Below are positions 43,262 through 50,728 of a stretch of DNA of 51,324 nucleotides, in pieces. This DNA is from an uncultured Granulosicoccus sp. GTDB taxonomy: Bacteria; Pseudomonadota; Gammaproteobacteria; Granulosicoccales; Granulosicoccaceae. The stretch covers positions 1-51,324 of the forward strand of contig CALKLO010000042.1 of the NCBI GenBank assembly GCA_937991945.1, given 5' to 3'. The notes under the pieces were generated by a model. The model ran no database searches. It worked only from the letters and a program-made list of their open reading frames with translations, and was not told the origin of the DNA. The stretch's first letter is position 1, and the number at the start of each line of letters is the position of its first letter. The translations under genes and the position numbers were made by a program.

Positions 43262-44644
43262 ATGAACAAACCTACCGAGAATGTGAGTATGTCGGACCTG
43301 ATCGAAATGGATCGGTCTCACGTATGGCATCACCTAACTCCGCATAAGCCCCTAGAAGACAAAGATCCACTGGTTATCGTCAAAGGCGACGGTATGCGTG
43401 TGTGGGATCAAAATGGTAAGGAGCATTTAGACGCAGTTTCCGGTGCTGTATGGACAGTAAACTTAGGCTATGGTCGCGAAAGTATCGCTAATGCAGTACG
43501 CGACCAACTGGTTGAAATGTGTTATTTCGCGGGGTCAGCTGGCAACGTGCCTGGCATTAAGTACGCTGAACGACTCATTTCAAAGATGCCTGGCATGAGT
43601 CGGGTGTACTACTCCAACTCTGGTTCTGAAGCTAACGAGAAAGGCTACAAAATTGTTCGTCAAATTGCGGCAATGCAAAATGACGGCAAGAAGCACAAAA
43701 TTTTGTACCGAGACCGTGATTATCACGGTACAACGATTACAGCGTTATCGACCTGTGGCCAAAATGAGCGACGTGATCAGTACGGTCCGTTTACGCCAGG
43801 TTTTGTCGAAGTCCCGCATTGCTGCGAATACCGCAGCCAGTTCCCTGACGATTCAGACTACGGTGTCAAGATTGCTCGGGAAATTGAAAACGTCATTTTG
43901 CGTGAAGATCCAGACACGGTGGGTTCTATCGTATTGGAACCGATTACTGCGGGTGGAGGGGTTATTACACCTCCTGAAGGATACTGGGAAACGGTTCAGG
44001 AAATATGCACAAAGTACGGAGTCCTATTGCACATAGATGAAGTGGTGTGTGGTTTGGGTCGTACCGGTGAATGGTTTGGTTATCAGCACTACGGCATCAA
44101 GCCTGACATCGTCACTATGGCAAAAGGTGTTGCTAGTGGTTATGCGGCTATCGCTTGTACCGTCACAACTGAAGATGTATTTAATCAGTTCAAGAAAAGT
44201 GACGACCCTATGAGCTACTTCCGTGATATCAGCACATTCGGTGGCTGTGCCGCCGGACCTGCAGCAGCATTAGAAACCATGCGTATCATCGAAGATGAAA
44301 ACCTTCTAGAGAACACCCGAAAAATGGGTGACTATCTAATGGAAAAACTACGCGGTTTACAGAACAAATATAAAGTCATCGGCGATGTACGCGGTAAGGG
44401 CTTATTTTGTGGTTTTGAGCTGGTTAAAGATCGCCAGACCAAAGAGCCTGTTGACGAAAAAATGCTCATGGCTGTCGCCGCAGATTGCATGGAACACGGC
44501 GTCATTATCGGCCGTACTAATCGAAGTCTTACGGGATTGAACAATACAGTTTGCTTAAGCCCTGCATTGATTTGCACAGAAAAAGATATTGATGACATCG
44601 TGCTAGCGATTGACAATGCGATGGGTCGTCACGCCAACATTTAA
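43262..44644 (+). CDS. tpa: Class III aminotransferase, taurine-pyruvate aminotransferase-like
   Basis: A 460-residue PLP enzyme. The core MSDLIEMDRSHVWHHLTPHKPLE and LDAVSGAVWTVNLGYGRESIA match Tpa-type enzymes that transfer the amino group of taurine to pyruvate, giving sulfoacetaldehyde. The PLP lysine is K288 in TMAKGVASGYA; the aspartate of HIDEVVCGLGRTG precedes it. GGAG lies eight bases before the ATG. ACCGG-ACG-CCGGT at 43219-43231 is a small symmetric site in its upstream region. Xsc or a taurine transporter is not in the window, so other omega-amino acids such as beta-alanine remain possible. A GST gene follows after 16 bases. Confidence 0.65.
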   Translation: MNKPTENVSMSDLIEMDRSHVWHHLTPHKPLEDKDPLVIVKGDGMRVWDQNGKEHLDAVSGAVWTVNLGYGRESIANAVRDQLVEMCYFAGSAGNVPGIKYAERLISKMPGMSRVYYSNSGSEANEKGYKIVRQIAAMQNDGKKHKILYRDRDYHGTTITALSTCGQNERRDQYGPFTPGFVEVPHCCEYRSQFPDDSDYGVKIAREIENVILREDPDTVGSIVLEPITAGGGVITPPEGYWETVQEICTKYGVLLHIDEVVCGLGRTGEWFGYQHYGIKPDIVTMAKGVASGYAAIACTVTTEDVFNQFKKSDDPMSYFRDISTFGGCAAGPAAALETMRIIEDENLLENTRKMGDYLMEKLRGLQNKYKVIGDVRGKGLFCGFELVKDRQTKEPVDEKMLMAVAADCMEHGVIIGRTNRSLTGLNNTVCLSPALICTEKDIDDIVLAIDNAMGRHANI

Positions 44645-45315: not shown

Positions 45316-46410
45316 TTACTGACCCATACCTGACAGAGTGCCGGTAACCGAATCGATAGTCGGTTGGAGAATATCGCTAACACCATCAGCAGCGAAGGCT
45401 TTGTCAGCGAGCGGTTGGATACGTTCCAGTCCACTGGCAATCATTTTAGCGATAGGGCCTTTCGCGACATCAGGTACTGAAGGAAATTGTGCTGCTACAT
45501 CGCTGAGCCGACTGCTGACAGCTTCTAGTTTAGGTTGGGCAAGCTTAGCGCTAGCTTCGTCCTTAACGCCAGAAAGCAAGCTCGTGGTCGTGCCTATAGC
45601 GCTTCCGATACCACGACTAATGCCAGACAGACTCAGTGGTTCTGCGCTTGATCCCTCAGCGTTTTCGCTGGCGTCAGTCGTCTCGACGTCAGCTGCACCA
45701 TCCACAGCTTCAGATGCCCCATCAGCTGCACCGTCCACAGCGTCAGATACTGCATCGGTTGCGCCGTCTACAGCGCCAGATACTGCATCAGTAGCACCGT
45801 CCACAGCGTCAGATACTGCATCAGTAGCACCGTCCACAGCGTCAGATACTGCATCGGTTGCACCGTCCACAGCGTCAGATACCGCATCGGTTGCACCGTC
45901 CACAGCGTCAGATGCCGCATCGGTTGCACCGTCCACAGTGTCAGATACCGCATCGGTTGCACCTTCTACAGCGTCAGATACCGCATCGGTTGCACCTTCT
46001 ACAGCGTCAGATACCGCATCGGTTGCACCTTCTACAGCATCTGCCGCACCTTCTTCAGAACCCGATACGGCGCTCTTAACGCTGTCCACAGCGCCAGATG
46101 CCATTTCTGATGCGCTTTCAAACGCGCTTGATGCCACCGTGGAAGCCGTTTCCATTGCGCCAGAGACCGCGACAGTTGCCGTATCAGCGGCGTTTTTGAT
46201 CACGTCTTTGACTGACTCGAGTGTGTTCTCAGCGCCGTCTACAGCGGCTTCAGAGACGTCGCTGACCACATCTGCAGACCCTTCCAGCTTATCGGCGGCG
46301 GTGCTTGAGGCATCCGTGGCGGTTTTTCCAGAAATGGTCTCTTGGTATTGCGAGTAGCCGAGCCAACTGAGTACGCCGATGACAACGAATAGAAATAGGG
46401 CTTTCCACAT
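45316..46410 (-). CDS. Membrane-anchored protein with 11-residue tandem repeats
   Basis: A 364-residue protein. A transmembrane helix lies at residues 3-20 (KALFLFVVIGVLSWLGYS), then Ala/Ser/Asp-rich helical sequence, then ten units of VDGATDAVSDA-type 11-residue repeats at residues 126-235, and a C-terminal helical domain of about 110 residues (ISRGIGSAIGTTTSLLSG and later). The 11-residue period is that of LEA and apolipoprotein-like amphipathic helices, but the units lack lysine and are strongly acidic. No homolog with a known function comes to mind; structural or stress protection is a guess. GGAG lies 12 bases before the ATG, and a palindrome (46450-46459) is 40 bases upstream. Confidence 0.8.
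   Translation of the reverse strand: MWKALFLFVVIGVLSWLGYSQYQETISGKTATDASSTAADKLEGSADVVSDVSEAAVDGAENTLESVKDVIKNAADTATVAVSGAMETASTVASSAFESASEMASGAVDSVKSAVSGSEEGAADAVEGATDAVSDAVEGATDAVSDAVEGATDAVSDTVDGATDAASDAVDGATDAVSDAVDGATDAVSDAVDGATDAVSDAVDGATDAVSGAVDGATDAVSDAVDGAADGASEAVDGAADVETTDASENAEGSSAEPLSLSGISRGIGSAIGTTTSLLSGVKDEASAKLAQPKLEAVSSRLSDVAAQFPSVPDVAKGPIAKMIASGLERIQPLADKAFAADGVSDILQPTIDSVTGTLSGMGQ
45706..46035 (-). repeat. 33-bp tandem repeat, ten units, encoding VDGATDAVSDA
   Basis: Ten in-frame 33-base units, most nearly identical in DNA, coding for V-E/D-G-A-T-D-A-V-S-D-A with scattered substitutions (T158, A165, G212). DNA-level similarity implies recent unequal crossing-over or slippage, so unit number probably varies between strains. 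Confidence 0.9.
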
Positions 46411-46727: not shown

Positions 46728-47414
46728 TTGGAAGACCTCATATACAACTTCTTGTTGCAATCAAAGTTTCCCAGAGCCTCAATTTTACTCAATACCGACT
46801 TGCTCAACGTTGATAGTTTGGCGTCCACAGGTCCTTATGACATACCCACTTTTATAATCGTAGACCCTGAAACAGCGCAACCACTAGCACTCATCGAAGT
46901 GGTCGATGCTGTCGATGACGATACCCTAAAAGAACACTCCATGCAGATGCGAAAGTATGCATCAAAGCTGGCGGGCAACGCTATTCAGGGGTTCCTCATC
47001 AGGGTAGATATTAGGGGCGTTACTGAGGCTGATCAGGTACAGTTTTTTAAAATTTGGCCAACCAGCACACTGCAAAGCTTAAGTAGCAAGACGTTTCCAG
47101 ATCTGGGCACGCTTAGAGTTGCCCGAATGTTGGTGGATGCCAAAAAGCCTGTAGAAGAAGCAGACGACGTTGAAGAGCCAGAAATTGTGCCTATTGACCT
47201 TCCGGTTGTTCAAGCTGCCCTGCCTGAACAACAGAAATCGGGTGCGCTGTTGAGCCTGTATTTTCCCGCAGCTGTCGTACTTGTCCTAGCATTGCTCGAT
47301 AGCGTCCATATGGCTTTTCGTGGAACCCCATTGCTGTCATTAACGCAAAGTGTGCTGGTTATTGGCGCAGCGTTGCTATATACCGTGCCTGCAGCCCTCC
47401 GGTACATCCGTTAA
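46728..47414 (+). CDS. Membrane protein with N-terminal PD-(D/E)XK-like domain, lysine replaced
   Basis: A 228-residue protein I do not recognise. The N-terminal 120 residues look like a restriction-endonuclease fold of the HsdR-N type: an early glutamate, an aspartate in YDIPTFIIVD, IEVVD in the second strand, and QMRKYA in the following helix. The normally essential lysine (ExK) is replaced by valine, so it is probably inactive, or a lysine is supplied from elsewhere. A loop rich in Glu and Asp follows (130-165), then two transmembrane helices at about 174-193 and 204-224. The start TTG has no clear ribosome site; no other start lies before the stop at 46698. The fold call is by motif reading only. 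Confidence 0.5.
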   Translation: MEDLIYNFLLQSKFPRASILLNTDLLNVDSLASTGPYDIPTFIIVDPETAQPLALIEVVDAVDDDTLKEHSMQMRKYASKLAGNAIQGFLIRVDIRGVTEADQVQFFKIWPTSTLQSLSSKTFPDLGTLRVARMLVDAKKPVEEADDVEEPEIVPIDLPVVQAALPEQQKSGALLSLYFPAAVVLVLALLDSVHMAFRGTPLLSLTQSVLVIGAALLYTVPAALRYIR

Positions 47415-47504: not shown

Positions 47505-48434
47505 ATGGAAGTTTTGCTATCAGGTTTGCGTGCAGCAGGAGAGCCCACTAGGCTCCGGTTACTTGCGCTGTGCGCGCATGGTGAGCTAAGCGTTTCTGAA
47601 CTGACTCAGATATTGTCCCAGAGCCAACCACGCGTCTCTCGTCACTTAAAGTTACTGGTTGAAGCGGGTTTACTCACGCGCATACGCGAGGGCTCCCTAG
47701 TGTTTTATCGCATAGCTGATGGGCATGAGTCTGCACACTTAGCTAGAACCCTCGTCGATTTACTTCCAAGTAACGATACGGAGTTAAATCGAGATTTAGC
47801 GCGGTTAGACATGATTCGTCAAAAGCGAGCTGAATTGGCTGAAAATTACTTCCAAGTTAACGCCTCTCATTGGAACAAAATACGTGCGTTGCATGTTCCT
47901 GAGGCAGATGTAGAAACTCGATTACTTGAGTTAGTGGGTCCGGAACGCATCGAGACGTATTTGGATATCGGTACGGGAACGGGGCGAATGCTCGAGTTAT
48001 TTGCAGGCCAAATCGACAAAGGTATTGGGCTTGATTTAAGCAGTGAAATGCTGGCAATTGCACGAACGCAACTAGAGAACGAACAGTACCGACATGTGCG
48101 GATTCGTAAAGGTGATATGTACAACATGCCGCTCGACGACGAATCCATAGATTTAGCGACGTTGCACTTGGTTCTACACTACAGCTTGGAACCGGCAGCT
48201 GTGTTGAAGGAGGCAGCTCGCACCCTCAAGAAGAGTGGTCGTTTAATTATTGTAGATTTTGCAGCACACGGCGAAGAGCACTTACGTACCGAGCATAAGC
48301 ATCAGCGCCTGGGTTTTAGTGATCGAGAAATAGTACAAGCCCTGGAGCAAGCAGGGCTTACCGTTGGTGCTACAGAGTCCCTAGTTGGTGACCCTCTTAC
48401 GGTTAAAATTTGGCAGGGCGTACGCGCTAGTTAA
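47505..48434 (+). CDS. ArsR-family regulator fused to a methyltransferase domain, SahR-like
   Basis: A 309-residue fusion. Residues 1-95 form a winged helix: GEPTRLRLLALCAHGELSV, SQSQPRVSRHLKLLVEAGLL, and EGSLVFYRIAD. The C-terminal half is a class I methyltransferase fold with YLDIGTGTGRMLEL at about 152-165 and GIGLDLSSEMLAIA. This layout is that of SahR, which represses methionine-cycle genes and responds to S-adenosylhomocysteine. No ahcY or met gene is adjacent, so targets are elsewhere. ATATC-TT-TATAT (47490-47501) abuts the start and might be an autoregulatory site. The gene's end overlaps the DegT gene by four bases. Confidence 0.72.
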   Translation: MEVLLSGLRAAGEPTRLRLLALCAHGELSVSELTQILSQSQPRVSRHLKLLVEAGLLTRIREGSLVFYRIADGHESAHLARTLVDLLPSNDTELNRDLARLDMIRQKRAELAENYFQVNASHWNKIRALHVPEADVETRLLELVGPERIETYLDIGTGTGRMLELFAGQIDKGIGLDLSSEMLAIARTQLENEQYRHVRIRKGDMYNMPLDDESIDLATLHLVLHYSLEPAAVLKEAARTLKKSGRLIIVDFAAHGEEHLRTEHKHQRLGFSDREIVQALEQAGLTVGATESLVGDPLTVKIWQGVRAS

Positions 48435-49655: not shown

Positions 49656-50249
49656 CTAGGGTGTCTTACTGTTTTCTGGTTGTTTAAGTGTGCGTGAAAC
49701 AAGTAAAGCGACGAAGCCGCCAGCCAACGCACCGATTAAGTGGCCTTCCCACGAAACGCCACGTTGAAAAGGCACGATGCCCTGCAGGATAGTTGATGCA
49801 TACAAAACGCCAACAATCACTGACAAAATCACAGACTGCACGCGTTTTTCAAACAAGCCTGCACAGATGTGAAAAGCGATTAGCCCAAAAACAACGCCGC
49901 TTGCGCCAATATGTAAAGCCGTTCTACCAAACAGCCACAAGCCCACACCACTGAGTACGGTGATGATGGCAACAATGCCAAGGCTATTTGCTCGAGACCC
50001 TGCCAATAGCAATAAGGTGACGGCTAGTGGAGCTGTATTACCGAGCAAATGTTTAAAGTCGGCATGTAGAAATGGCATCGCAATGATGCCAGTTAGCCCA
50101 TGCAGGGTTCGAGGTACGAGTCCAAAGGTTTCTAAAGGTAGAAAACTGTCTAACGCGAAGACCACCCATACGAGGGCGATAATGAGACCCACGCTAAGTA
50201 GGTCCCGCTTTACGGAATGGATATTTCTAGAATCTATGAGTCCTGACAT
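49656..50249 (-). CDS. Rhomboid family intramembrane serine protease
   Basis: A 197-residue protein with about six hydrophobic helices. The catalytic serine is S117 in IGASGVVFG and the histidine H170 in WEGHLIGALAGG; HADFKHLLGN supplies the His and Asn of the oxyanion region. Rhomboids cut membrane helices of substrates within the bilayer. It starts five bases after the upstream small membrane-protein gene and ends seven bases before the DegT gene. Its natural substrate is unknown; the neighbour with one helix is a candidate. Confidence 0.9.
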   Translation of the reverse strand: MSGLIDSRNIHSVKRDLLSVGLIIALVWVVFALDSFLPLETFGLVPRTLHGLTGIIAMPFLHADFKHLLGNTAPLAVTLLLLAGSRANSLGIVAIITVLSGVGLWLFGRTALHIGASGVVFGLIAFHICAGLFEKRVQSVILSVIVGVLYASTILQGIVPFQRGVSWEGHLIGALAGGFVALLVSRTLKQPENSKTP

Positions 50250-50254
50250 AATCG

Positions 50255-50728
50255 TTAGACGAGCATTTCTCTCAACTTACTGGCCACAGATGCCAGTTCG
50301 TCATCCGATGCTGAAACGCTATTGTCGCCAGAACGTAGCGCTGCGAATAGTTCTTTAGTGACGCCTAAGCGGCCGGCATCAGGTGCTGCTAAATTAAGCA
50401 TTTTGATCATCTCGCGAACATCTTGGCCTACGTTATCGCTTTGTACGGATAAATCAGGTAAGTCAGTTGCACTCAAGCTTCCTGCCGCTGCACTGGCTAG
50501 CACCGCTGCTGCAACGCCCTTGGCGGCACCCGAGCCAGTTGAGGTGGTGTTAGCTGCGTCCGTGGCTACAGCGTTTGCTGCAGAAGAGGGTGTGGCAGGA
50601 TTTTCAGTGTTAGCGGTGCTAGCGCTAATCTCTGCTGGGGGTGAGTCAGTCGAGGCGGATTTGCCCGTCATGGCTTTTATAATTAAATAGGCGATTACAG
50701 CGAGGACAAGCAGGATCAAAAACCACAT
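50255..50728 (-). CDS. Small membrane-anchored Ala/Ser/Thr-rich protein
   Basis: A 157-residue protein. One hydrophobic helix (FLILLVLAVIAYLIIKAM) at residues 3-20 is followed by a low-complexity Ala/Ser/Thr/Asn stretch (25-90) and a C-terminal helical part (NVGQDVREMIKMLNLAAPDAGRLG and VASKLREML). No known domain. It is the first gene of the operon with the rhomboid five bases on. Like the repeat protein at 45-46 kb it starts with MW and a single helix, a weak resemblance. A rhomboid substrate or partner is a hypothesis from position alone. Confidence 0.7.
   Translation of the reverse strand: MWFLILLVLAVIAYLIIKAMTGKSASTDSPPAEISASTANTENPATPSSAANAVATDAANTTSTGSGAAKGVAAAVLASAAAGSLSATDLPDLSVQSDNVGQDVREMIKMLNLAAPDAGRLGVTKELFAALRSGDNSVSASDDELASVASKLREMLV

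Follow-up and report, generated by a model that had tools for sequence, protein, structure and literature searches.

A gene in the uncultured Granulosicoccus sp. sequence studied here joins a putative membrane anchor to a conserved C-terminal domain through a long acidic spacer, part of which consists of tandem 11-residue repeats, and the locus raises the question of what such a repeat is for. The gene was analysed within its window, the whole stretch of 51,324 bases, and compared with relatives from the same family and beyond. The reading that we favour, with somewhat better than even confidence, is that the product is a membrane-anchored acidic helical stalk or tether that presents a four-helix tip in the periplasm. 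At one locus, the relatives provide a natural series of stalks of 232 to 768 residues in which the repeat has been replaced and the helical phase mostly retained. With this series one can ask directly which property of a periplasmic spacer is selected, its length, its charge or its helix, and the comparison points to a domain that lacks a convincing Pfam or NCBIfam match and is present in 44 of 48 sampled family genomes.

A young repeat array within a three-part protein

A tandem repeat search (TRF, score of at least 50) found a single array in the window, at 45694-46038, with a period of 33, 10.5 copies, 92% matches and 0% indels. The array falls within the minus-strand ORF at 45316-46410 and is the same as that described in an earlier note on this DNA as 33-bp repeats coding for 11-residue units, which had been placed at 45706-46035 and is offset by 6 bases. 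DNA identity among the ten in-register units averaged 88% in pairwise comparison (73-100%) and was 76-100% between neighbours, and the last unit, beside the C-terminal linker, was the most different from its neighbour. Codon differences among the units were 87 synonymous and 76 non-synonymous in 495 codon comparisons. The array is young, but its units are not near-identical throughout, as the earlier note had described them. The coordinates of the gene, its parts and the conserved locus markers are collected in Table 1.

Table 1. Features of the gene and of its conserved neighbourhood in the window
Feature	Position	Strand	Basis or remark
Whole gene, 364 aa, ATG start: TM anchor, acidic spacer and C-terminal domain	45316..46410	-	ORF list, best self match, syntenic relatives
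Membrane anchor at the N-terminus (aa 1-28, MWKALFLFVVIGVLSWLGY...), taken to be N-in/C-out	46327..46410	-	hydropathy only
Spacer, first part (aa 29-127), with a degenerate helical rhythm	46030..46326	-	best angle 99 degrees; 0/5000 shuffles
Ten in-register 33-bp units, aa 128-237	45700-46029	-	consensus GATDAVSDAVD, net charge -29
Linker (aa 238-258), acidic and probably flexible	45637..45699	-	pLDDT <50, no helix
C-terminal domain, aa 259-364 + stop, predicted four-helix bundle	45316..45636	-	profile, alignment, structure prediction
Class-III aminotransferase, conserved locus marker	43262..44644	+	neighbour searches
228-aa ORF, TTG start, hydrophobic C-terminal stretches, conserved divergent neighbour, locus marker	46728..47414	+	neighbour searches
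ArsR-type HTH + methyltransferase, conserved locus marker	47505..48434	+	neighbour searches

The 110 repeat residues comprised 29 Asp/Glu and 0 Lys/Arg. Three acidic residues were present in nine of the ten units and two in the other, so that the earlier account of units without lysine and with three acidic residues each held in all but this one unit. When a unit was drawn on an 11/3 helical wheel, Gly/Ala/Val occupied 0-164 degrees, Thr/Ser 196-229 degrees and Asp 262-327 degrees. Permutation of the 11 unit positions, alike across all ten units, reached the observed hydrophobic moment of the 11/3 helix in 10 of 5000 cases. Thus, the repeat unit is amphipathic at 11/3, which supports the helix period first proposed for it.

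The regions that flank the repeats differed in charge. The first part of the spacer had 19 acidic and 5 basic residues among 99 and the linker 6 acidic and 0 basic, while the C-terminal domain was near-neutral, with 10 acidic and 9 basic residues; the protein has no Cys and no His. The membrane anchor and the conserved C-terminal domain noticed at first reading were both recovered, the former as an anchor-like hydrophobic N-terminus by hydropathy, which has a similar counterpart in a relative (G015), and the latter as the conserved core of the protein. The spacer between them totals 240 aa. AlphaFold modelled the whole protein with helices at residues 2-117 and 119-236 and a gap at 238-258; pLDDT was 65-75 over the repeats and 38-73 ahead of them, with only the window sequence covering the spacer. 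AlphaFold is prone to over-predict helix in low-complexity sequence, and because no homologous row covered the spacer, the helices predicted there were given little weight.

On the plus strand opposite the array, a frame with a GTG start is open for 339 codons (45338-46357) and encodes PSTASDTASVA-like repeats. It gave a weak match in a similarity search, and we attribute its openness to the repeat itself. A promoter and terminator scan returned 2 and 3 sites, respectively, against 1.3 and 1.3 expected, and no use was made of it.

A predicted four-helix domain at the end of the spacer

Structure prediction by AlphaFold2 with 17 alignment rows yielded four helices for the C-terminal (tip) domain, with a mean pLDDT of 92.3 and a pTM of 0.83. 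In an alignment of 89 tip domains, conservation reached 75% or more at 16 columns: one Phe, one Asp and one Ser, the rest being Leu, Ala, Pro, Gly or Val. The window domain departs from three of the 16 (aa 272, 331 and 354); it carries the signature of the domain (D..SA..A.P.L, P, P, GV, P) and matched the tip profile, which was built from 22 rows with the window domain among them, at 1.3e-38. No catalytic residue set was apparent in the domain. Since most conserved columns seem to fall at helix caps, in turns or where helices pack, we read the tip as a putative binding or assembly domain.

A scan of 22 tip members found no convincing Pfam or NCBIfam model (best E 0.048 and 0.00083, respectively, with the cut-offs of the models displayed for the first member only). 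The best NCBIfam match, TIGR00709, scored 18 bits at an E of 0.00083 against a cut-off of 401.6 and was taken as chance. A search by sequence for solved relatives returned 22 sequences at E <=1, of which the best, sc-apCC-4 (E 4.1e-5), is presumably, to judge from its name, a designed coiled coil; none of its stretches passed by itself, and the match was taken as composition. When the predicted tip was compared with folds in the PDB, the best Foldseek E was 2.2, and VIA-align gave MukF (Z 9.8, rmsd 2.4 over 110 residues) and a FlgN-like protein (Z 9.8, rmsd 3.0 over 99 residues) as its best matches, a Z within the range that the program's own note gives for common helical bundles. Clear fold relatives were thus not found in the PDB by either program. 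Neither the protein nor its tip domain was named in the parts of the literature covered by searches on Granulosicoccus, DUF937, yidB, hendecads and TolA spacers, with preprints and most subscription journals lying outside them. The tip domain is undescribed, while the stalk plan itself is of a known kind.

Distribution of the tip domain and its DUF937 relatives

The Granulosicoccaceae genomes with the tip domain held one to three copies each, and the domain was found in 27 of the 28 family genomes with completeness of 90% or more and contamination of 5% or less. A search at order level took in the same 48 genomes as the family search. Sampling across the class turned up the domain in 5 of 369 genomes, three of them from the window's own family, and sampling across the phylum in 6 of 398, one being the window's genome. 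The tip domain is therefore rare outside Granulosicoccaceae, a family for which kelp and other seaweeds are reported sources, and the long-stalk form has so far been seen only within it. The window's own genome has the domain at three places, namely the window and contigs C8 and C31.

Relatives with DUF937 (PF06078) have the plan DUF937, TM helix, short linker and the same four-helix domain as the window tip, whereas the window protein had no DUF937 match listed at E <=1 and consists of anchor, spacer and tip only. In all eight genes that the two samples gave outside the family, the tip followed a DUF937 domain scoring over the Pfam cut-off (L172, L173, L176, L177, L178, L179, L180 and L181). 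In the window's genome, PF06078 is present on contigs C31 and C131, and the tip-domain copy on C31 carries DUF937 over the Pfam cut-off; a plasmid protein annotated as "DUF937 domain-containing protein" also matched the tip domain (32% over 79%). A DUF937 start motif was found in 47 of the 89 genes, although this motif missed the Pfam-confirmed L172 and L173. Some spacer-group proteins, as seen when L085 is set against L094, retain the Gly/Asn-rich stretch and TM helix of the DUF937 form without DUF937 itself, which suggests that the domain was lost in them. Six tip paralogues (L120, L125, L136, L109, L124 and L111) have repeated DPVTGATIY-like motifs between acidic low-complexity sequence.

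The starts of these relatives bear on topology. In DUF937 relatives, some 200 residues or more precede the TM helix, which is therefore not a cleaved signal there. One protein from another genus (L143, G027 contig C23) begins with a lipobox-like LSAC motif, possibly with a lipid anchor in place of the TM helix, and continues with 11-residue Ala/Ser/Asp repeats, Gly/Asp/Ala units and the tip; L109 and L124 have signal-like starts. Internal TM helices, LSAC and signal-like starts all agree with an extracytoplasmic tip. From hydropathy and this comparison, the tip and spacer of the window protein would lie on the periplasmic side.

Spacer length varies between species at one locus

Loci were assigned by neighbour searches using genes from the window and from the other own-genome loci. 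Among the 89 fetched tip genes, 19 were at locus A, in the order class-III aminotransferase, tip gene, 228-aa ORF and ArsR/methyltransferase; three were at locus B (purC and/or fba) and 13 at locus C (murQ). The assignment to locus A was made on the 228-aa neighbour alone for L140 and L152 and on the aminotransferase alone for L086, L092, L095, L100, L103, L105, L108 and L110, and two further fetched entries, L174 and L175, were without a tip domain. The 228-aa ORF shared 33-54% identity among relatives and had no Pfam match at E 0.01; its N-terminal half may resemble HsdR_N-like sequences.

Twelve locus-A genes were uncut and 7 of the 19 were cut at contig ends. In a tree of the tip domain, built on 105 columns with many forks unresolved, 11 of the 12 uncut genes fell in a 31-row spacer clade (support 99/94), and their intact spacers measured 232, 238, 240 (window), 254, 296, 385, 483, 535, 664, 736 and 768 aa. 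The twelfth, L110, is of the DUF937 form, has a 49-aa spacer and comes from another genus; it lies in the other clade of the tree and so may not be an orthologue. The suggestion of a variable-length spacer is thereby supported between species, across 11 intact genes of one clade at one locus, and the constancy of unit count that the earlier note had named as grounds for giving up its proposal did not occur between species.

G015, to which the window protein is most closely related, has a 238-aa spacer with no tandem array and with 8.4% Lys/Arg, and the two tip domains group at 100/100 support on a long branch. Because G015 has a spacer of near-equal length without an array, the window array may have grown within an older helical spacer of similar size, a comparison of two species from which conservation of length is not inferable. 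At 0.15 nm per residue, a straight helix of 240 residues would measure about 36 nm and one of 768 residues about 115 nm. The latter exceeds any ordinary periplasm. Spacers of 664-768 aa could not cross one as straight rods, and the long forms must therefore bend, fold back or be partly disordered.

Helical phase and negative charge across spacers

Hydrophobicity spectra were computed over periods of 2-20, where the alpha-helix band of 3.55-3.76 residues makes up 3.6% of the frequency range. Rows were 18 of the 19 locus-A spacers, each at least 60 aa (L110, at 49 aa, was too short), and 14 further spacers of our own choosing, excluding eight DUF937-type rows (L146, L155, L158, L159, L160, L164, L165 and L169). 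The strongest peak fell in the helix band for 15 of the 18 locus-A spacers, at 3.58-3.75 residues, including the non-repetitive G015 spacer (3.68); two short contig-end pieces, L095 and L105, were marginally in band, with a power in against outside the band of 1.09 and 1.01, respectively. Of the 18 spacers, 15 matched themselves best at a shift of 7, 11, 22, 29 or 40 and the other three at 10, 15 or 41, although such a shift does not always mark a clean repeat (as in G015 and L152). Sequence shuffles break tandem repeats and overstate significance for arrays, and for this reason unit permutation and whole-spectrum tests were added.

The three locus-A spacers outside the band (L094, L100 and L108) are Gly/Glu-rich and group together (100/94); that clade thus retains the tip domain without the rhythm. 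Of the 14 further spacers, from other or unassigned loci, three were in band and 11 outside, several of the latter carrying DPVTGATIY-like motifs or Gly/Glu units. Collectively, the rhythm marks most locus-A stalks; many sister stalks lack it, and it reappears in other members of the family. Negative charge was more uniform, with Asp/Glu at 23-39% in all 18 locus-A spacers measured and Lys/Arg at 2.1% or less in 17, G015 being the exception.

These results bear on an alternative, possible but rather doubtful in our judgement, in which the spacer is a disordered acidic brush or entropic tether, charge and length alone matter, and the 11-residue rhythm is left over from repeat growth. The shared acidity and scarcity of Lys/Arg would fit such a tether, and so would units of the kind (AAEGEE)n or AEGEATETEA. 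The residues Thr, Val, Gly and Asp also have a low helix propensity. With only 3 of the 14 further spacers showing a helical peak, an acidic tether that is disordered is evidently able to bear the tip domain. However, the helix-band rhythm was the strongest in 15 of 18 locus-A spacers despite their differing periods, and retention of phase across differing periods is not expected from drift alone.

A rhythm of 3.62-3.66 (0/300 shuffles in each) was also seen in the eight DUF937-type proteins, which come from another genus. It lies there in long Ala/Gly-rich stretches of near-neutral charge that in most cases precede the TM helix. Thus, neither acidity nor a periplasmic location is needed for such repeats.

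Comparison with known helices and periplasmic spacers

The 11/3 phase of the window repeats is that of apolipoprotein, LEA group 3, synuclein and perilipin helices. A membrane-lying amphipathic helix like the 11-residue repeats of synuclein, apolipoprotein or perilipin would account for this phase, for the single apolar and single acidic arcs of the wheel (0-164 and 262-327 degrees) and for weak Pfam matches to Apolipoprotein A1/A4/E (PF01442, 38 bits) and Perilipin (PF03036, 22.5 bits). Nevertheless, both matches fell under their curated cut-offs (90 and 33 bits, respectively), the repeats have no Lys/Arg and an apolar face mostly of Ala/Val, unlike the known 11-residue amphipathic helices, and a net charge of -29 per 110 residues would lie beside anionic membranes. 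We consider this reading unlikely. The earlier note had also doubted it, a doubt that the lack of Lys/Arg strengthens and the shared 11/3 period tempers.

The window protein had 12 Pfam families listed, 11-residue-helix families included, and all scored below cut-off. Membership was likewise rejected for Phasin_2 (PF09361; 18.8 bits against a gathering score of 24.9) and for the Ag473 lipoprotein (NF047840; 30.2 bits against a curated cut-off of 100), the window protein having no Cys.

The window repeats resemble right-handed or straight hendecad coiled coils in the 3-4-4 spacing of their apolar residues, and the 11/3 hydrophobic periodicity by which hendecads are recognised was found in them; spacer periods of 11, 22, 29 and 40 likewise fit whole helix turns. 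They differ in having Ala/Val in place of large core residues.

The continuous acidic arc of the wheel also raises a divalent-cation rod, in which Ca2+ or Mg2+ held by rows of Asp on one face would make the stalks stiffer or link them to each other. Sea water is high in both ions. No Ca2+-binding family is among the 12 Pfam listings, however, and the acidic residue and its spacing vary between species, so that we regard a cation-binding rod as very unlikely.

In its overall plan the protein resembles TolA and TonB, which have a TM helix, a long periplasm-spanning domain II and a globular C-terminal domain; domain II of TolA in gamma-proteobacteria is often alpha-helical and variable in length, and a SHLS motif is named for the TolA TM helix (PMC12204202). 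This shared plan could be taken to mean that the window protein is a force transducer that replaces or supplements TolA. Unlike TolA and TonB, the window protein lacks the Ser/His TM motif, its TM helix having no His, its counterpart of domain II is acidic, and its tip is predicted to be an all-helical four-helix bundle. It matched neither PF06519 nor PF13103 at E <=1, of which PF06519 does not discriminate, since it also misses the own-genome TolA-like protein, and its gene is not in a tol group. Further, the same genome encodes a 576-aa TolA-like protein (L185:2008-3738) with a TonB_2 (PF13103) C-terminus (32.5 bits against a cut-off of 22), whose gene adjoins those for TolB, ExbD/TolR and MotA/TolQ/ExbB family proteins. 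A TolA substitute was rejected on these grounds, and we hold a transducer role to be extremely improbable. At most, the protein would act in the manner of a TolA-type spacer; it does not belong to TolA.

A model for the acidic stalk

In the model of an anchored acidic stalk that we favour, one N-terminal helix would hold this envelope protein in the inner membrane, and the acidic spacer would extend into the periplasm as a stalk or tether, its Ala/Val and Asp residues lying on separate faces at the 11/3 helical phase. The small four-helix bundle at its end would be the working part, in binding or assembly. Stalk length would be set by the gain and loss of in-frame units that leave the reading frame unbroken, 33 bp in size here and, as judged from protein periods, probably 66, 87 or 120 bp in relatives. 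Length and sequence would then drift fast while acidity and, in 15 of 18 locus-A spacers, helical phase are retained. Stalks may pair through the Ala/Val face, their acidic faces then pointing outward in a marine periplasm. That the spacer is helical in the cell, that its Ala/Val faces pair and that the tip binds a partner are points that we infer.

For Granulosicoccaceae envelope stalks as a group, we tentatively propose, as a conjecture with the odds somewhat against it, that repeat turnover rebuilds the period (11, 22, 29 or 40), while selection holds helical phase and negative charge and so tunes the distance or mobility of the tip from the inner membrane.

Neighbouring genes

The murQ gene was present in 13 of the 89 fetched stretches, and 8 of these 13 tip genes carry the DUF937 start motif. 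One DUF937-TM-tip gene, L107 on contig C31 of the window's genome (G000), stands tail to tail with murQ. A link to peptidoglycan through murQ, seen in 13 of 89 stretches, was judged too weak to build on. The locus-B stalk gene of the same genome, between fba and purC (L174/L089; G000 contigs C101 and C8), is apparently split by the assembly inside 22-residue repeats.

Within the window, at 49656-50728, a rhomboid protease gene adjoins a small anchored-looking protein (50255-50728) with an Ala/Thr/Ser-rich linker, and the two are a possible protease and substrate pair.
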